From Candidatus Nitrosocosmicus sp. (lineage in GTDB: Archaea; Thermoproteota; Nitrososphaeria; Nitrososphaerales; Nitrososphaeraceae), in contig JAICXY010000022.1 of the NCBI GenBank assembly GCA_025934495.1, positions 1 through 39,107 of the forward strand: 39,107 bases of DNA, in the 5' to 3' direction. Position numbers and translations under genes: made by a program. Below the pieces are notes generated by a model. It saw only the letters and a program-made list of their open reading frames with translations, was not told where the DNA came from and searched no databases. Shown here piece by piece: positions 30,915 to 38,465 of this stretch. The number at the start of each line of letters is the position of its first letter. Positions within the stretch are counted from its first letter, which is position 1.

Positions 30915-31969
30915 TAGATCTCTTGCATAATTAGAAACAATCTATACCTTTGGGTATAATATTTGCTCAGTTTCTACCGATACGGATTCATTATTCTATA
31001 GTTTACCAGTCCTGATACTATATCTGATATTCTATCATATCTTCTTAAATTGTTTCTGAATATATCGCTTAATATCCTGTATTTTTTTAGTCTACAGATA
31101 GCATGCTCTCTATCACAATCCTTTTTTTAGAACGCATTTTGTTGTATTCTTTTTCCTCTTCAGATAATTGCAATTTTCTTTTCCTTCTGTATGGTAAGGT
31201 GGACAGTTGCTGTGGAAAGTCTTTTTCTACGCCAAGATATCCTAGATCAAAGACACTAACAACTTGTTTTGGGATCAAAGGATGATTCTTTTTATATACT
31301 CAATATATAATCATGCCTTCTTCCTTTTTTATGGTCTGTTTTGTGAATGATAATTCCATGATTGTTAACCATAAGCTGTGTCTTTACCGTATGTCTCTTT
31401 TTATTTCCAGAATACAAAACATTTTTTCTTTTATTATCAACAGGTCTTGGAATCTGTTGTTCTGTACAATCTATGAAAGCAAGAAAGCCAGGAAAGTATT
31501 TCTCAACTTCATCAAGGGTTCGGAGCCTTTTAGTTATGTTGTATATCTTTTGTGGAATCGCTAGGCATTGTCTTACCAATCTTTCTATCTTTTGAATGTC
31601 CCTGCAAATGTTGCTATTCTGATCCAAATCAAACAGAAAGCCCGCTAGAGTATAAGTTATGTAAAGGCGATATTAAACCAAAAGCATTACAAATCTGTCT
31701 TTTAAATCCAGTTTGAAAGGTCTTCCCGCTCCGATTTTTCTTTCTCTAATATCTCTTTTGGCGGATGATAAACGTTGAATCTCATGTTTATCATATCTTT
31801 TTGTTATCTCTTCATTGTAGATATTATCAAACTTGTACTGAAAGTCCGGTGAATGATTTAAAGAGCATTGGTTTTTTGGACAGTCTGCCATATGAAAGCA
31901 ATTATAGTACAAATTGATAGACAACCAAAGATCATAAAGCTGTTTATTCTAATTACGCAAGAGATCTAA
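30915..31969 (-). mobile_element. IS5-family (DDE_Tnp_4-type) element, best preserved copy
   Basis: The left end TAGATCTCTTGCATAATTAG at 30915 and the right end, inverted, TAGATCTCTTGCGTAATTAG ending at 31969, match over 20 bases with one difference and delimit 1055 bp. Because every copy begins with TA, a TA target duplication versus a TA-containing terminus cannot be decided. It is the reference for the other three copies (113-506, 2246-3319, 26236-27287). Transposase details are given separately. Confidence 0.85.
31087..31924 (-). pseudogene. IS5-family transposase with stop codons and a frameshift
   Basis: Starting at the ATG at 31924 the frame encodes the N-terminal part up to GRPFKLDLKDRFVMLLV, then a TAA at 31673, and resumes in frame as YRLYITYTLAGFLFDLDQ. 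The segment 31627-31292 contains FLAFIDCTEQQIPRP (first catalytic Asp), NVLYSGNKKRHTVKTQ and the DHKKGRRHDY region. After the stop following HDYILSI and a one-base shift, 31278-31087 carries IPKQVVSVFDLGYLGVEKDFPQQ, the DLGY (second Asp) block, and EEEKEYNKMRSKKRIVIE with the final Glu region. No active protein is expected without recoding. Confidence 0.8.
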
Positions 31970-32093: not shown

Positions 32094-33380
32094 ATGATAA
32101 TTAATTCTGATTTGTATCCCTCTATAGATACTGCTTTTACAAAACTATTACAATATATAAAATTTTGTCAAGAAACAGAATCTATAAAAGTTTTTAACTC
32201 CAAAGGATATGTTCTAAAAGAAGATATCATATCAAAAGATGACCTGCCTCCATACCCCAGCTCTCATATGGATGGATTTGCTTTAAAATCAAATGAAACA
32301 GATAATGCTTCTGAATCAAATCCCATTTCTTTTAGAATTTCAAGGAGTACTTCTATTTTAGGCAATCAACCAACCGATGTTCTAAAACCAGGTGAGGTAT
32401 TTAGAATACAAACTGGTGGATTTTTACCTTATCAATCAGATGCAATAGTTCCTATTGAAAACATAAAACAGATAGATGATAAAACTATACATATCTTTTA
32501 TCCAATTAAAAAAGGAAATTTTGTATATAAATCAGGAGCAGACATCAAAAAGGGCGAAAAAGTTCTTTCAAAAGGACAAATAATTAGAGTACAAGATATG
32601 GCTTTTCTAGCCCATTTGAAAATTAACAAGATATCTGTATTTAAAAAACCAATAGTTGCATTAATACCAACAGGAACAGAGCTTACAGATAATATTGAAG
32701 AAAATATAAACAGCAAAGTCAAAAAGGTTATTAATACAAATAGTCCTATAATTTCAGGTATAATCAATGAAATAGGTGGAATGCCAATAGATTATGGAGT
32801 AACACCGGATGAATCAGATATTTTGAAAAGTAAAATAAAATTTGCTTTAGAGAAATCAGACATTGTTATTACAATAGGAGGATCATCCGTAGGAAAAAAA
32901 GATATAGTGGAAACAACAATAAATTCCATTGGTTTACCTGGAGTAATAGTTCATGGCGTTAGACTAGATAGAGGAAGAGTATCAGGTTTAGCAGTAATTA
33001 ATAAAAAACCTATAGTAATATTACCCGGTCCTATTCAAGGAGCATTGAATGCATTTATTGTATTTGCAAGACCATTAATTAGACTTTTTTCTGGTTTGTC
33101 TCAAAAAAATGAATTGACAATTTTAGCTACAATTACTGAAAATTGGAATGCTCGCAAAAAATTCATTAATTTTACAAAGATAGTTTATGTTAAAGTATTT
33201 AAAGACGTCAAAGGTTTTATGGCTACTCCTCAAGTTGGGGAAACCCAAAGTATATCTTTACTATATAAGAGTAATGGATATCTTATAATACCAGAAGAAG
33301 TGACCAGTATTACAGCAGGTGAAAAGATCGAAGTTAATTTACTACCTGGTTTTTCTTTTATAAAAGATAGTCTCATTTAA
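32094..33380 (+). CDS. moeA: Molybdopterin molybdenumtransferase MoeA
   Basis: A 428-aa cytosolic enzyme that inserts molybdate into adenylated molybdopterin, the last step of Mo-cofactor synthesis. Domain order is usual: an N-terminal region with LPPYPSSHMDGFALKS (about 52-66; the SxMDGfA motif), a beta-rich second domain (VFRIQTGGFLPYQSDAIVPIE near 102-122), and a MoCF-binding domain with VALIPTGTEL, TNSPIISGIINEIGG and VITIGGSSVGKKD (about 258-271). It then has VSGLAVINKKPIVILPGPIQGALNAF and a C-terminal domain IV. Length is typical of archaeal MoeA lacking the PBP-like extension. It starts a Mo-cofactor block with moaCB, the molybdoenzyme, moaA and tatC. Confidence 0.93.
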   Translation: MIINSDLYPSIDTAFTKLLQYIKFCQETESIKVFNSKGYVLKEDIISKDDLPPYPSSHMDGFALKSNETDNASESNPISFRISRSTSILGNQPTDVLKPGEVFRIQTGGFLPYQSDAIVPIENIKQIDDKTIHIFYPIKKGNFVYKSGADIKKGEKVLSKGQIIRVQDMAFLAHLKINKISVFKKPIVALIPTGTELTDNIEENINSKVKKVINTNSPIISGIINEIGGMPIDYGVTPDESDILKSKIKFALEKSDIVITIGGSSVGKKDIVETTINSIGLPGVIVHGVRLDRGRVSGLAVINKKPIVILPGPIQGALNAFIVFARPLIRLFSGLSQKNELTILATITENWNARKKFINFTKIVYVKVFKDVKGFMATPQVGETQSISLLYKSNGYLIIPEEVTSITAGEKIEVNLLPGFSFIKDSLI

Positions 33381-33526: not shown

Positions 33527-34438
33527 TTAATTATGTCCTTGTCCTGATATCATCTTAAATCCGTGCATTATCGCAGGAAATAATACATTAAGTGATTGAG
33601 ATACAGCCATTGTACTTCCTGGAAGATTGATGATTATTGTGTTTCCTCTTATTCCTGCAACTCCTCTTGATAGCATAGATAGAGGTGTTCTTTGCTGTCC
33701 ATAATTCCTTAAACTTTCTACAATACCATTAATCTCTTTTTCTAAAATATTTTTAGTTGCTTCAGGTGTAGTATCCCGAGGACCTAAACCTGTTCCACCG
33801 GTCGTTATAATAATATCAATATTTGATTCATCACATAAACGTTTTAATTCATACTCGATTAGTTTTATTTCATCTGGCAATACTTTGTATTCGATTATAT
33901 CAAATCCATTTAAAGATAATATATCGATTATTATTTTACCAGATTTATCTTGTTCTATCTTTCTAGTGTCACTAATTACAATAACTACTGCATTAAGTTT
34001 TCTGCCAACTTTATCATGAAAATCTCCAATTCCACCATGCTTTTCTATAACTCTCACAGATTCAATTGTTAAAGATTTATCCAGTGGTTTTAACATATCA
34101 TAAATTGTTAGTGCCGCAATACTTGCCCCTGTTAGTGATTCCATTTCTACTCCCGTTTTCCAAACGCTATTTACATTAACAATTATTTTAATGAAATTCT
34201 GTTCCATTTTAAATTCTACCTTGATTCCATCTATAGGAATTGGGTGACAATATGGTATCAGTTCGGATGTTCTTTTTACACCTATTGTTGCAGATATTTT
34301 TGCTGCTTCAAAAATATTTCCTTTTGGTGAATTACCATCAAGTATTTTATTCATTATACTAGGATCAATGACTACTACTGCCTGTGCAGTTGCTGTTCTG
34401 TATGATTCGGGTTTATCGCCAACATCGATCATGCCCAT
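33527..34438 (-). CDS. Fused MoaC-MoaB: cyclic pyranopterin synthase plus molybdopterin adenylyltransferase
   Basis: A 303-aa bifunctional protein. Residues 1-142 are MoaC, which with MoaA converts GTP to cyclic pyranopterin monophosphate. It shows MIDVGDKPESYRTATA, IPYCHPIPID (61-70) and GVEMESLTGASIAALTIYDM (96-115). Residues about 149-303 are MoaB/MogA, which adenylates molybdopterin, with VVIVISDT, ITTGGTGLGPRDTTPEAT (211-228) and INLPGS (270-275). Separate genes are more common in archaea; the fusion is known in bacteria. I place the start at 34438 rather than 34516 because MoaC homology begins there and a TATA box sits 24 nt upstream, implying a leaderless message. It is convergent with moeA. 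Confidence 0.9.
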   Translation of the reverse strand: MGMIDVGDKPESYRTATAQAVVVIDPSIMNKILDGNSPKGNIFEAAKISATIGVKRTSELIPYCHPIPIDGIKVEFKMEQNFIKIIVNVNSVWKTGVEMESLTGASIAALTIYDMLKPLDKSLTIESVRVIEKHGGIGDFHDKVGRKLNAVVIVISDTRKIEQDKSGKIIIDILSLNGFDIIEYKVLPDEIKLIEYELKRLCDESNIDIIITTGGTGLGPRDTTPEATKNILEKEINGIVESLRNYGQQRTPLSMLSRGVAGIRGNTIIINLPGSTMAVSQSLNVLFPAIMHGFKMISGQGHN

Positions 34439-34462
34439 ATTAATTAAAGATATACTATAATC

Positions 34463-34470
34463 TATATAAA
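34463..34470 (-). promoter_or_regulatory. TATA box of the moaC-moaB gene
   Basis: TTTATATA on the minus strand ends 24 nt before the ATG at 34438. This spacing places transcription start at or next to the start codon and helps choose the shorter MoaC start. Confidence 0.5.
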
Positions 34471-34600
34471 AAAAATTATAAAACTTAAATAATATCAATA
34501 GAGATAAACAAAACAAAGATTATCAAAAATTATTTGAATAATAATGAATTTTGACTTAATTTGGAAAAACCTTAAATTCTTCGATTCATCAGGTATTTAA

Positions 34601-36301
34601 ATGGTCCGGAAATTATTAAATTGGTCACAAGGTATATTTTTTATTTGCGGACTTGCTGCAGGTATTGCTGCACTTTCTTTGTCACTATTTTTTAAAATAT
34701 CTTTTAACGGAATATTTGTTCCTGAAGCAGCATCACAGGCATTAGTTTCGTTAACCTCAGGTCAAGTCGAGTCTGTTGCTGTGGAGACGTTAGGCCCGCT
34801 TGCTAAATATTCATCTTTTTTTGGGGCCATTTTTGCCAATATATTACTATATGGTATAATAGGCATATTTCTCGGTGTGCTATATAATAAAATCCGTACA
34901 AGGAAATTTATCCCAAGGGCTTTATTATCATCTTTTATATCTTATATTATTTTATTAATCCTTACTGTTTCCTTTATCATAATAAATACAGTACCCGGTC
35001 AAAAGTTATTAATTTCATCAGCTCAACTTACTGCACTTTTTGTACCACATCTTGTTTATGGCTTCATCTTTTCTTTCTTCTTTGAAAGACTAAGAAAGAG
35101 CAAATCTTTTTCTCCCCCTGCTTCTAAACAAAGGCCGCAGACTATTGATTATATGGCGAAAGAATCAGTGGCTAATGCAACAACTGAAATAGATATCAAA
35201 AAAAGAGCTTTACTTCGTGCAATTGGAGTATCTGCAATTGCTTTACCTATAATGTATTTTGGACTTAACCGACTTTTTTCTCAGCAGGAACAACAATCAC
35301 CTATTCCATCCTCTTCACCAGCATCACAAAATAACCAAATTGAACCAAAATCTCGACCGCCGGGTTTTGGAGATGCAGTACTAACTCCATTAATTGATGC
35401 CGAGGAAACTCCAACTTACCTCTTTTACCGGATAGATAAAAATGCCATTGTACCTGAGGTTGATGTCACAGGATGGAGTCTCAACGTCAAAGGACTGGTA
35501 AATAATCCATTGGTCATAAATTACAATCAAATTAAGGCAATGAATTCCATAGAGCAATATGCTACTTTATCATGTGTAAGCAACAAGATAGGTGGAGATC
35601 TGGTCAGTACTGCCTTATGGAAGGGGGTGCGTCTAAGAGATATTCTTGCAAAAGCACAAATCAAACCAGAAGTAAAATATATTATTTTCAGATGTTTTGA
35701 TGGGTATGACGTTGGAATACCTATAGAAAGCGGTCTGATGGATGGTACAATTTTGGCATACAATATGAACAATAATCCACTTACAAATGACCATGGTTAT
35801 CCACTTAGAGCTATAGTTCCAGGCTTCTACGGTATGATGAATCCAAAGTGGATTACAGAAATAGAGCTCGTTGATTCGACCTATGAGGGCTTTTGGCAGA
35901 GAAAAGGATGGACGAATAATGGAAATGATAATATTTATTCATCCATAGTTACCCTAGGAAATCAAGATATTATAAATAGATTTCCACATTTAGTTACTGA
36001 TAACTTGGCAATTGGTAAAACATCTCAAATTGCAGGAGTTGCTTATGCCGGGGATCGCGGAATATCTAAAATAGAGGTTAGTACAGATGGAGGAAATACC
36101 TGGAAATCCGCTATTGTAAAGGATCCTCTGTCCAAATATACATGGGTGTTATGGACTAGTGGATTTACTCCGAAAGTAAATGGCAATTATAATATTATTG
36201 TGAGAGCTACCGATAAAACGGGGAAAGTTCAAACATCCGATTTTGCTGAACCTTTTCCTAATGGGGCTTCAGGATATGATATGGTAAATGTAAGCGTATA
36301 A
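34601..36301 (+). CDS. Membrane-anchored sulfite-oxidase-family molybdoenzyme with N-terminal four-helix domain
   Basis: A 566-aa two-part protein. Residues 1-165 hold four hydrophobic helices (about 10-32, 70-94, 107-130, 140-162). A linker follows, then IDIKKRALLRAIGVSAIALPIMYFGL (198-222): a fifth helix preceded by KKRALLR, which resembles the Tat motif [S/T]RRxFLK with Lys for the first Arg. Residues about 250-430 are the oxidoreductase molybdopterin-binding domain (PF00174 type). They include ATLSCVSNKIGGD with the likely Mo-ligating Cys325 and HGYPLRAIVPGFYGMMNPKWI (398-418). Residues about 455-566 are the Ig-like sulfite-oxidase dimerisation-type domain. Substrate unknown: sulfite oxidase, nitrate reductase and YedY-like proteins share the fold. 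Flanking Mo-cofactor genes and tatC fit an exported, anchored enzyme. Confidence 0.9.
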   Translation: MVRKLLNWSQGIFFICGLAAGIAALSLSLFFKISFNGIFVPEAASQALVSLTSGQVESVAVETLGPLAKYSSFFGAIFANILLYGIIGIFLGVLYNKIRTRKFIPRALLSSFISYIILLILTVSFIIINTVPGQKLLISSAQLTALFVPHLVYGFIFSFFFERLRKSKSFSPPASKQRPQTIDYMAKESVANATTEIDIKKRALLRAIGVSAIALPIMYFGLNRLFSQQEQQSPIPSSSPASQNNQIEPKSRPPGFGDAVLTPLIDAEETPTYLFYRIDKNAIVPEVDVTGWSLNVKGLVNNPLVINYNQIKAMNSIEQYATLSCVSNKIGGDLVSTALWKGVRLRDILAKAQIKPEVKYIIFRCFDGYDVGIPIESGLMDGTILAYNMNNNPLTNDHGYPLRAIVPGFYGMMNPKWITEIELVDSTYEGFWQRKGWTNNGNDNIYSSIVTLGNQDIINRFPHLVTDNLAIGKTSQIAGVAYAGDRGISKIEVSTDGGNTWKSAIVKDPLSKYTWVLWTSGFTPKVNGNYNIIVRATDKTGKVQTSDFAEPFPNGASGYDMVNVSV

Positions 36302-36519: not shown

Positions 36520-37536
36520 TTATCCACCAATAGTGTGCATTTGATTTAATGTAGGTTTCAATAAATTCAATCTTGTTAAACTAATTATACCTTCAGGCTT
36601 TTTCTTTATATTTTCCAGAATATATTCACCAATTTCTGCATCGGACTTTCCTTCCTGCAGTAAAACCTTCAAGTCATAGATTTTTTTCTCAAATAAACAA
36701 GTATAAAATTTACCATCCGAAGTTATTCTTATTCTATCACAGTATTGGCAAAATGGCTCTGTTATAGAAGGTATAAATCCGACAATTCCGATTCCATCTT
36801 CAAAAGAATAAAGTCTTGCTGGGTCAGAATTATCATTAAATAAAGGTACTAGTTTTTTTACTTTTGTATTTATCAACTGAATCATTTCTCTTTTACTAAA
36901 AACAAGATTATTAGTCCAAATACCCGTCCCATCCAGAGGCATAAATTCTATAAATTTCACTATTGTATTTGTTTCTCTTGAAAATTGTGCAAAGTGTACA
37001 ATCTCATCCTCATTCCATCCTCTCATTATTACTACATTTATTTTTACTTGTAATCCGGCAGTTTTGGCTGCATCTATCGAATCTAACACTTTAGTAAGCC
37101 CTCCTTCAATCCCGGTGATGGCTTTAAATCGTTTTTGATTAAATGTATCTAGGCTAATTGTTATGCTATTTAATCCGGAATCCTTAAGTTTTTTTACTTT
37201 GTCCTTTAGCAAAAGTCCATTTGTTGTCATACTAATTGATTTTATTCCATCGATATTAGAAAGAGATTTTACAAGCTCTTCTATTTTAGGACGTACTGTT
37301 GGTTCACCACCTGTAATTTTAATTTTTTCGATTCCAAATTTTGCAAAAATGTTGACGAGGTGAACAATTTGCTCATAACTCAAAAGAGTATTCTGTTCAA
37401 GCCAATTAGTATTATTATATGGCATACAATATACACATTGCATATTGCATCTATCTGTAACCGAAATTCGAAGCTTTTTTGCAATCCTCCCATAGCTATC
37501 TTCCATATTTTTTTTAAATATGGAATCTTTGTCCAT
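36520..37536 (-). CDS. moaA: GTP 3',8-cyclase MoaA
   Basis: A 338-aa radical-SAM enzyme that starts Mo-cofactor synthesis by cyclising GTP, working with MoaC. The first [4Fe-4S] cluster ligands are C30-x3-C34-x2-C37 (TDRCNMQCVYC), and the SAM-binding GGEP lies at 76-79. The second cluster ligands are C263, C266 and C280 in the pattern C-x2-C-x13-C (FCQYCDRIRITSDGKFYTC). The chain ends in the conserved double glycine (MHTIGG), required in the family for inserting its tail into the active site. ATG at 37536 is used; Met11 is possible. It is divergent from tatC and convergent with the molybdoenzyme gene. Confidence 0.95.
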   Translation of the reverse strand: MDKDSIFKKNMEDSYGRIAKKLRISVTDRCNMQCVYCMPYNNTNWLEQNTLLSYEQIVHLVNIFAKFGIEKIKITGGEPTVRPKIEELVKSLSNIDGIKSISMTTNGLLLKDKVKKLKDSGLNSITISLDTFNQKRFKAITGIEGGLTKVLDSIDAAKTAGLQVKINVVIMRGWNEDEIVHFAQFSRETNTIVKFIEFMPLDGTGIWTNNLVFSKREMIQLINTKVKKLVPLFNDNSDPARLYSFEDGIGIVGFIPSITEPFCQYCDRIRITSDGKFYTCLFEKKIYDLKVLLQEGKSDAEIGEYILENIKKKPEGIISLTRLNLLKPTLNQMHTIGG

Positions 37537-37664: not shown

Positions 37665-38465
37665 ATGGTAACCAAAGTATCTGAAGAGTCTGCTTTTACT
37701 GTATTATTACACGAATTTAGAGGGATATTTATTAGAATTTCAGTACCTGTAATAATTATTATCTTTTTCTGTATGACCATGAGCATCTCTATGATAAATA
37801 TAGGCGATTATCAGATACCAATACTTTATCCTAATTCTATACACAGTATTTCAATTCAGATCATTATTCTAATGAAAAATACTTTATTACCAAAAACAGT
37901 TACGCTTATTCAAGTAGCACCAGGTCAAGCATTTATAGCACAAATCTATGTATCTATTATATTGGGCATTATTGTTGCTCTGCCGATAATGCTTAGAGAA
38001 CTAAACGGATTTATAGGTCCTGCACTTTACTTTCAAGAAAAAAAAATAATTAAAAATGTCATAATTTCTTCAATAATTCTTTTTATCGCAGGTTGTTTTT
38101 TTTCATATTATCTTGTAATACCATATACAATTGAATTTTTATATAAATATGGTGAATCAATGGGAGTTGCCTCTTTTTTTGATATAACGCAATTTATTTT
38201 ATTTGTAATGAATATGCTAATCTTATTTGGTTTTGCATATCAACTTCCCCTTATTATGTGGGCCCTTACTAAAACCAAAATTGTAAATCAACATTTCTGG
38301 AGAAACAATTTTCGTTTTGCTATTTTATTTCTAGTTATTTTAGGTGCTTTTATAACACCTGACGGAAGTGGAGTTACAATGTGGTTTGTTGTGGGGCCAT
38401 TGCTACTTCTTTATATTATAGGTATGATTGTTGTAAAGACAAAATTTAACAATATTACTTTATGA
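37665..38465 (+). CDS. tatC: Twin-arginine translocase subunit TatC
   Basis: A 266-aa membrane protein with six helices, the receptor for twin-arginine signal peptides in the Tat export machinery. Family marks are the cytosolic LLHEFRGIFIRISVP entry (about 14-28), a periplasmic-side loop before VAPGQAFIAQIYVSIILGIIVALPIMLRELNGFIGPALYFQEKK (with the F-x-x-P-x-L and Glu of the TatC signature), and GAFITPDGSGVTMW (the V-x-T-P-D motif). TatA is not in the window. Position beside a molybdoenzyme with a Tat-like internal signal suggests a direct working link. It is transcribed divergently from moaA across 128 bp. Confidence 0.95.
   Translation: MVTKVSEESAFTVLLHEFRGIFIRISVPVIIIIFFCMTMSISMINIGDYQIPILYPNSIHSISIQIIILMKNTLLPKTVTLIQVAPGQAFIAQIYVSIILGIIVALPIMLRELNGFIGPALYFQEKKIIKNVIISSIILFIAGCFFSYYLVIPYTIEFLYKYGESMGVASFFDITQFILFVMNMLILFGFAYQLPLIMWALTKTKIVNQHFWRNNFRFAILFLVILGAFITPDGSGVTMWFVVGPLLLLYIIGMIVVKTKFNNITL

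Follow-up and report, generated by a model that had tools for sequence, protein, structure and literature searches.

A five-helix sulfite-oxidase-family enzyme of a soil archaeon with an internal Tat motif and a putatively co-specialised second TatC

Introduction

Molybdopterin enzymes of the sulfite oxidase family receive their cofactor in the cytosol. The closest described architecture is that of the five-helix protein Sco3746, for which Tooke et al. (2017) established Tat dependence and the presence of five helices by means of E. coli reporter fusions (PMC5449189). Homologues of Sco3746 occur in actinobacteria, firmicutes, chloroflexi and euryarchaeota, all carrying an RR pair, and in Sco3746 fusions the replacement of RR by KK abolished Tat export (PMC5449189). 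That variant was KK, whereas the enzyme considered here carries KR; it is encoded in a stretch of 39,107 nucleotides from Candidatus Nitrosocosmicus sp., analysed as a whole and referred to as the window. The host is an ammonia-oxidising soil archaeon, and its genome was assembled as a 3.56 Mb draft of 200 contigs.

The window enzyme and the Sco3746 family have in common four helices, a cytosolic linker and a basic-pair motif before helix five (the topology being predicted here), followed by a C-terminal molybdopterin domain, with a positive charge after helix five. They differ in the motif, the window lineage having KR for RR and Leu, Met or Ala for Phe, and in the second TatC linked to the gene. 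Sco3746 homologues also possess three conserved heme-ligand histidines in TM2-4 and a positive predicted TM5 insertion energy, in contrast to the Nitrososphaeraceae members and the window enzyme, respectively. The sequence-only reading had proposed an archaeal case of Sec-then-Tat insertion. A member from Nitrososphaeria is indeed present, but euryarchaeal members of the architecture had already been reported (PMC5449189), so an archaeal case is not by itself new. The five-helix Sec-then-Tat idea is thus right at its core but known, a KR-bearing enzyme from Nitrososphaeria extends it, and the new part is the putatively co-specialised second TatC beside the enzyme.

Nitrososphaerales sulfite-oxidase-type MoZymes with N-terminal transmembrane helices, proposed to form a novel cytochrome domain, were described in a study that mentions neither Tat nor tatC (PMC7603488). 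These likewise combine PF00174 and a dimerisation domain behind several helices and are almost certainly the same proteins as the window enzyme type. MsrP/MsrQ (YedY/YedZ) offers another likeness, pairing a Tat-exported family member with Sec-inserted helices, but these are separate polypeptides, the membrane subunit carries heme b, and the sequence is more distant (MsrP 54 bits, cut-off 207). In Bacillus subtilis, the TatAdCd-PhoD system has a second TatC that is encoded next to, and dedicated to, one substrate. PhoD, however, is a soluble substrate with its own TatAd and an RR signal, whereas no tatA is linked to tatC2 in the window, and here the signal too has diverged. TatC isoforms have been surveyed elsewhere (PMC3827258).

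Results and discussion

Enzyme and catalytic domain

The enzyme gene and its catalytic features are as follows.

34601..36301, + strand: sulfite-oxidase-family molybdoenzyme with five helices, 566 aa (open reading frame; Pfam PF00174 and PF03404)
35447..35896, + strand: molybdopterin-binding domain (Oxidored_molyb), residues 283-432 (PF00174, E 6.8e-45)
35573..35575, + strand: Cys325, presumed Mo ligand (conserved Cys motif of the family)
36011..36238, + strand: Mo-co_dimer dimerisation domain, residues 471-546 (PF03404, E 4.7e-9)

With both the Cys ligand and the dimerisation domain present, the enzyme belongs to the sulfite oxidase superfamily (PF00174 plus PF03404). Cys325 is unchanged in all 73 aligned homologues, and the nearest solved structures are SorA and the animal and plant sulfite oxidases, with E values down to 6e-27. 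The NCBIfam equivalog cut-offs are all missed, the scores being 145 of 600 bits for SorA, 129 of 420 for SoxC, 97 of 570 for SorT and 54 of 207 for MsrP. Homologues of the enzyme were found in 40 of 61 related genomes.

Two further family members were seen. The genome of the window encodes a second, distant sulfite-oxidase-family protein (L002, G000:C76:289-777) with 30% identity and one in-frame TAA in the match. Genome G047 (L031/L093) encodes a 366-aa thaumarchaeal form with a single helix, in which RRRFIK directly precedes the sole helix and the catalytic part stands without the four-helix domain.

Helices and predicted topology

Five hydrophobic segments were located in the N-terminal part.

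34631..34699, + strand: TM1, residues 11-33 (dG scan; homologue hydropathy; helix in a low-confidence AlphaFold model)
34817..34885, + strand: TM2, residues 73-95 (dG scan)
34916..34984, + strand: TM3, residues 106-128 (dG scan)
35027..35083, + strand: TM4, residues 143-161 (dG scan)
35198..35218, + strand: internal Tat motif KKRALLR, residues 200-206, with K201 at the first-Arg, R202 at the second-Arg and L204 at the consensus Phe position
35207..35266, + strand: TM5, residues 203-222, predicted Tat-dependent helix (dG -0.23)
35270..35272, + strand: R224, positive charge just past TM5, invariant in 16/16 congeneric copies

The open reading frame, the Pfam matches and the dG scan agree with the initial description of four hydrophobic helices, KKRALLR at residues 200-206, a fifth helix and a molybdopterin domain with Cys325. 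The AlphaFold model, with a pLDDT of 55, served for helix positions only. An N-in topology is predicted and fits the loop charges, the counts of Lys plus Arg being 2, 4 and 11 for the inside loops and 1 and 1 for the outside loops.

Insertion energies, estimated with a re-implemented dG formula that had a single control (A16L3 = -0.01), were -1.1 to -2.0 for TM1-3, +0.89 for TM4 and -0.23 for TM5. Helix five had been described as less hydrophobic, which holds relative to TM1-3 but not relative to TM4. Four Sec-type helices and a conserved motif at helix five fit Sec-then-Tat insertion as first proposed, but the positive predicted TM5 insertion energy, the Sec-avoidance feature of the Sco3746 family, is absent here. 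Congeneric TM5 values lie between -0.7 and -1.8, and those of KR lineages as a whole between about 0 and -1.8.

Since these energies are near zero or negative, unlike those of the known family, insertion of helix five by Sec has to be weighed. In KR lineages, helix five would then have switched to Sec, the motif acting as a positive-inside anchor, and the domain would be exported unfolded or stay inside. The predicted insertion of TM5 in these lineages speaks for such a switch, as does the fact that twin-basic stretches before helices are a common background. It would leave both the linked, constrained tatC2 and the invariant K-R pair described below unexplained, and an exported enzyme that takes up its cofactor in the cytosol could not be exported by Sec in loaded form. 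A Sec switch is accordingly considered improbable.

A heme-binding role of the membrane part was also considered and rejected: the alignment contains no conserved histidine in TM1-4 of the Nitrososphaeraceae members, which disfavours bis-His heme binding.

Internal Tat motif across the family

Homologues were gathered from 61 related genomes, 80 named genome contigs and plasmid records. Motif-bearing members span Nitrososphaeria, Acidobacteriota, Chloroflexota, Actinomycetota and haloarchaea, with SRRxFLR as the commonest form. The initial proposal had named homologues without a twin-basic motif before helix five as the finding that would count against it; a basic pair stands at the identical column in 71 of 72 alignable homologues, an outcome that favours the proposal. 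Across the 72 tree rows the pair is RR in 48, KR in 19, RK in 4 and RS in 1. Strict RR, the form of most of the family, is thus replaced by KR in the window enzyme and all its congeners. Within the genus, K201 and R202 are invariant in 16/16 copies while the rest of the linker is highly variable.

The background frequency of such motifs is considerable. In an 800 kb sample of a relative's genome, the loose pattern [KR][KR]x[FLMIV] before a hydrophobic stretch gave 34 matches among 730 ORFs, with KK and KR more frequent than RR in that congener. A twin-basic motif before a helix in a single sequence is therefore unremarkable; judged from the alignment, it is the family-wide conservation of the column that exceeds chance. 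Soluble Nitrospira relatives carry the same catalytic domain behind an N-terminal RR Tat signal. The Phe position varies, too, among bacterial and deep archaeal members without a known TatC2.

Another non-RR Tat-like motif, SRHDFLK, occurs in the same genome as the signal of a 440-aa predicted exported protein (L247:316-1635, - strand; G000:C171).

Gene cluster and the second TatC

The enzyme gene lies among genes of molybdenum cofactor synthesis and is followed by a tatC gene.

32094..33380, + strand: moeA (domain matches)
33527..34516, - strand: moaC-moaB-type fusion, MoaC plus MoCF_biosynth (domain matches)
36520..37536, - strand: moaA, between the enzyme and tatC2 (PF04055 and PF06463; order conserved)
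37665..38465, + strand: tatC2, enzyme-linked second TatC, 266 aa (PF00902, E 1.5e-43)

A transposase fragment (DDE_Tnp_4) at 31292-31627 on the - strand lies just upstream of the cluster. The order moeA, moaCB, enzyme, moaA, tatC2 is kept in much of the genus. The enzyme gene has tatC2 downstream on its own strand in three genera, and at two of the loci (one in G008, the other in G015, which belongs to a different genus) tatC2 follows directly, with a gap of 75-80 bp. No tatC was found near the enzyme in TatC2-lacking genomes with long contigs (e.g. G024, L064).

The initial description of tatC as a near neighbour was accurate as to position, since a tatC gene adjoins the locus, but searches and trees identify that gene as a separate paralogue and not the general tatC. 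TatC2 forms a single clade with support of 100/98 (100/99 in an 89-row tree), distinct from the housekeeping TatC1 clade (98/95). The TatC2 model has a pLDDT of 91, and its fold matches the E. coli and A. aeolicus TatC structures. The dN/dS values were 0.10-0.47 for TatC2 and 0.02-0.16 for TatC1, and on these ratios TatC2 evolves under purifying selection. A search for a second, linked tatA found none, so that TatC2 would share TatA.

A search for TatC in 61 genomes gave two or three tatC genes for most congeners, with one beside each enzyme copy. Two enzyme copies are accompanied by two extra tatC genes in G006, G009 and G005 (one of them broken in the last), while the complete congener genome G004 has no enzyme and one tatC. 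A conserved genetic linkage of one TatC isoform with one substrate, as in dedicated TatC-substrate pairs, is thus present.

These copy numbers bear on whether the catalytic domain might stay in the cytosol as part of a membrane-anchored enzyme, TatC2 serving another substrate. The topology is a prediction, and TatC2 may have other substrates outside the cluster, which leaves some room for such an arrangement. The twin-Arg motif, however, is kept across phyla, soluble relatives bear canonical Tat signals, and tatC2 copies follow enzyme copies, so that a cytosolic catalytic domain is regarded as very improbable.

In three genomes, tatC2 is broken beside an intact KR enzyme: G013 (L218:6869-7665), G012 (L216, after 8712) and G005 (L200:803-1607, one of two copies). 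The breaks differ in position, and the enzymes of G012 and G013 are still constrained (dN/dS 0.097). Either the need for TatC2 is not strict or the gene was lost recently; the sequences argue against strict dependence of the enzyme on TatC2 in G012 and G013.

A decayed tatC also lies next to tatA in G034 (L226:1500-2300), and a similar one in G063 (L348); these genomes of genus g7 have other tatC genes. Replacement of TatC1 by TatC2 in g7 was considered and rejected, as an intact TatC1 is present elsewhere in related g7 genomes, and G034 and G020 may be incomplete.

Signal pocket residues in TatC1 and TatC2

In E. coli, L99 and E103 of TatC are needed for signal binding, and the E103A exchange inactivates the protein. 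How the signal is read has recently been resolved structurally in the TatBC-MdoD complex: the first Arg meets E15 (via water) and F94, the second Arg meets Y100 and, in a salt bridge, E103, and the signal Phe occupies a pocket formed by F94, L9, H12 and L13 (PMC13323110). The following TatC2 residues were aligned to these positions.

37704..37706, + strand: L14, at the E. coli H12 position (Phe pocket)
37713..37715, + strand: E17, at the E. coli E15 position
38037..38039, + strand: E125, at the E. coli E103 position, kept in 17/17 TatC2

TatC2 keeps the equivalents of E15, F94 and E103 and has Leu for H12. The canonical binding set is thus incomplete, and TatC2 is a TatC by profile and fold, but a variant. 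Among 32 columns conserved in TatC1 and the other thaumarchaeal families, H12 alone is wholly lost in TatC2 (0/17, against 100% in TatC1 and the other families). Conversely, among 30 columns conserved in TatC2 and the other families, the only two that most TatC1 have lost are L99 and E103. In the TatC1 of Nitrososphaeraceae, E103 is lost in 91% and L99 in 94%, while other families of the order keep both. Because the lost columns are H12, L99 and E103, the receptor changes fall on the signal site, and by alignment to the E. coli complex the loss of Phe in the enzyme and of H12 in TatC2 are matching ligand and receptor positions.

Two other pairings were tried and rejected. The first idea, that TatC2 lacks E103 to fit KR, fails as TatC2 keeps E103. 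Nor does loss of the second Arg (RK, RS) pair cleanly with the absence of E103 from TatC1, given that the RK genome G024 has Glu at this position and that RR enzymes are served by many TatC1 lacking E103. There is only a family-level tendency: RK and RS enzymes are confined to genomes without TatC2, and most of them occur where E103 is missing.

The housekeeping TatC of the family, for example that of the window's genome (L192:1426-2229; G000:C150:14063-14764), presumably still exports the RR Rieske protein. In the TatC1 of genus g5 (L350, L351, L353, L356, L357), tens of residues are inserted into the cytosolic loop that immediately follows the E103 position, within the region that binds the signal.

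Motif change and TatC2 presence

Seventy family genomes were searched for TatC and the enzyme, giving 44 Nitrososphaeraceae enzyme copies: 19 with TatC2 now or formerly (in three of these tatC2 is broken, and in two it lies on a different contig), 22 without, and 3 assigned to neither. With TatC2, the first position is Lys in 18/19 and the consensus Phe is found in 0/19, being replaced by Leu, Met or Ala. Without TatC2, the first position is always Arg (Lys 0/22), Phe is kept in 21/22, and the second Arg is changed in six copies (SRSAFLR or [ST]RKxF in L017_G027, L020_G033, L021_G024, L028_G032, L078_G070 and L352_G087), all lacking tatC2. The Lys that had been taken for a stray oddity is therefore fixed in the genus and tied to Phe loss, and first-position Lys is confined to lineages whose enzyme is linked to a second TatC and to cases that the assembly leaves undecided.

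Two exceptions were found. G034 has TatC2 yet carries RR (KRRALLR), and G021 has KKRLLLR with no tatC2 found, in a genome that is 75% complete and on a contig that stops 280 bp past the gene. A missing tatC2 in drafts may partly reflect missing data; G024, G032, G022, G018, G017 and G027 are 95-99% complete. On the enzyme tree TatC2 presence switches only some three times. This yields two to three independent pairs, all agreeing, a number with which no sign test can reach significance.

The Rieske signal [ST]RRDF(L/I/M)K is retained in 14 congeners and in 21 sequences of other genera, four of them TatC2-bearing. As this signal is unchanged in the same genomes, the Tat code of the genus has not been altered in general.

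This position-specific association can be set against neutral drift, under which the protein would be an ordinary Sec/Tat enzyme served by any TatC, tatC2 would be linked for reasons of the cluster, and KR and Leu would have drifted because a tethered helix needs only weak recognition. Tethering may indeed relax motif needs, given the low-level Tat export seen after RR to KK in a Rieske fusion (PMC5449189); RK and RS variants occur without tatC2, and enzymes persist next to broken tatC2 genes. Drift nevertheless sits poorly with a K-R pair invariant in 16/16 congeneric copies amid a variable linker, with motif changes that follow TatC2 presence and not a generally relaxed constraint, and with a TatC2 altered in just that pocket residue which corresponds to the ligand position that changed. 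Neutral drift is consequently held to be rather unlikely, though the most serious of the alternatives.

Proposed mechanism

The explanation judged probable, with modest confidence, is that the enzyme is inserted by both Sec and Tat and has a co-specialised TatC2 that is partly dedicated to it. By analogy with the known relative, Sec would insert helices 1-4 with the N-terminus inside, leaving the linker and helix five in the cytosol, where the catalytic domain, as is general in the family, would fold and take up molybdopterin. The Tat translocase would then read the internal K-R-x-L-L-R motif and carry the folded domain across, leaving helix five in the membrane. Linkage and covariation suggest that TatC2 is at least the main reader of the motif in this lineage. 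Pocket and motif would have changed together, TatC2 losing His12 as the enzyme lost Phe and its first Arg became Lys, and TatC2 keeping E103 while the enzyme kept its second Arg. The housekeeping TatC1 would serve ordinary SRRxFLK substrates such as the Rieske protein.

TatC2 and the internal tag look like a natural private lock-and-key pair. More tentatively, and with less confidence than in the mechanism as a whole, the two receptors may be naturally orthogonal, with TatC1 (H12 present, E103 and L99 absent) reading SRRxFLK and TatC2 (E103 present, H12 absent) reading KRx[L/M/A][L/I]R.

Significance

In this lineage evolution appears to have altered both sides of the TatC-signal contact, with an unchanged substrate in the same cells as a control. 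With this system it can be tested directly which contacts determine specificity, whether one Tat receptor can be insulated from another, and how Sec passes a half-inserted membrane protein on to a particular Tat receptor. A further question is how the housekeeping TatC of the family can function without E103. The transmembrane part of Nitrososphaerales sulfite-oxidase-type enzymes would serve insertion and not act as a cytochrome; if the orthogonal pair is real, a membrane-tethered Sec-then-Tat substrate would have its own translocase entrance.
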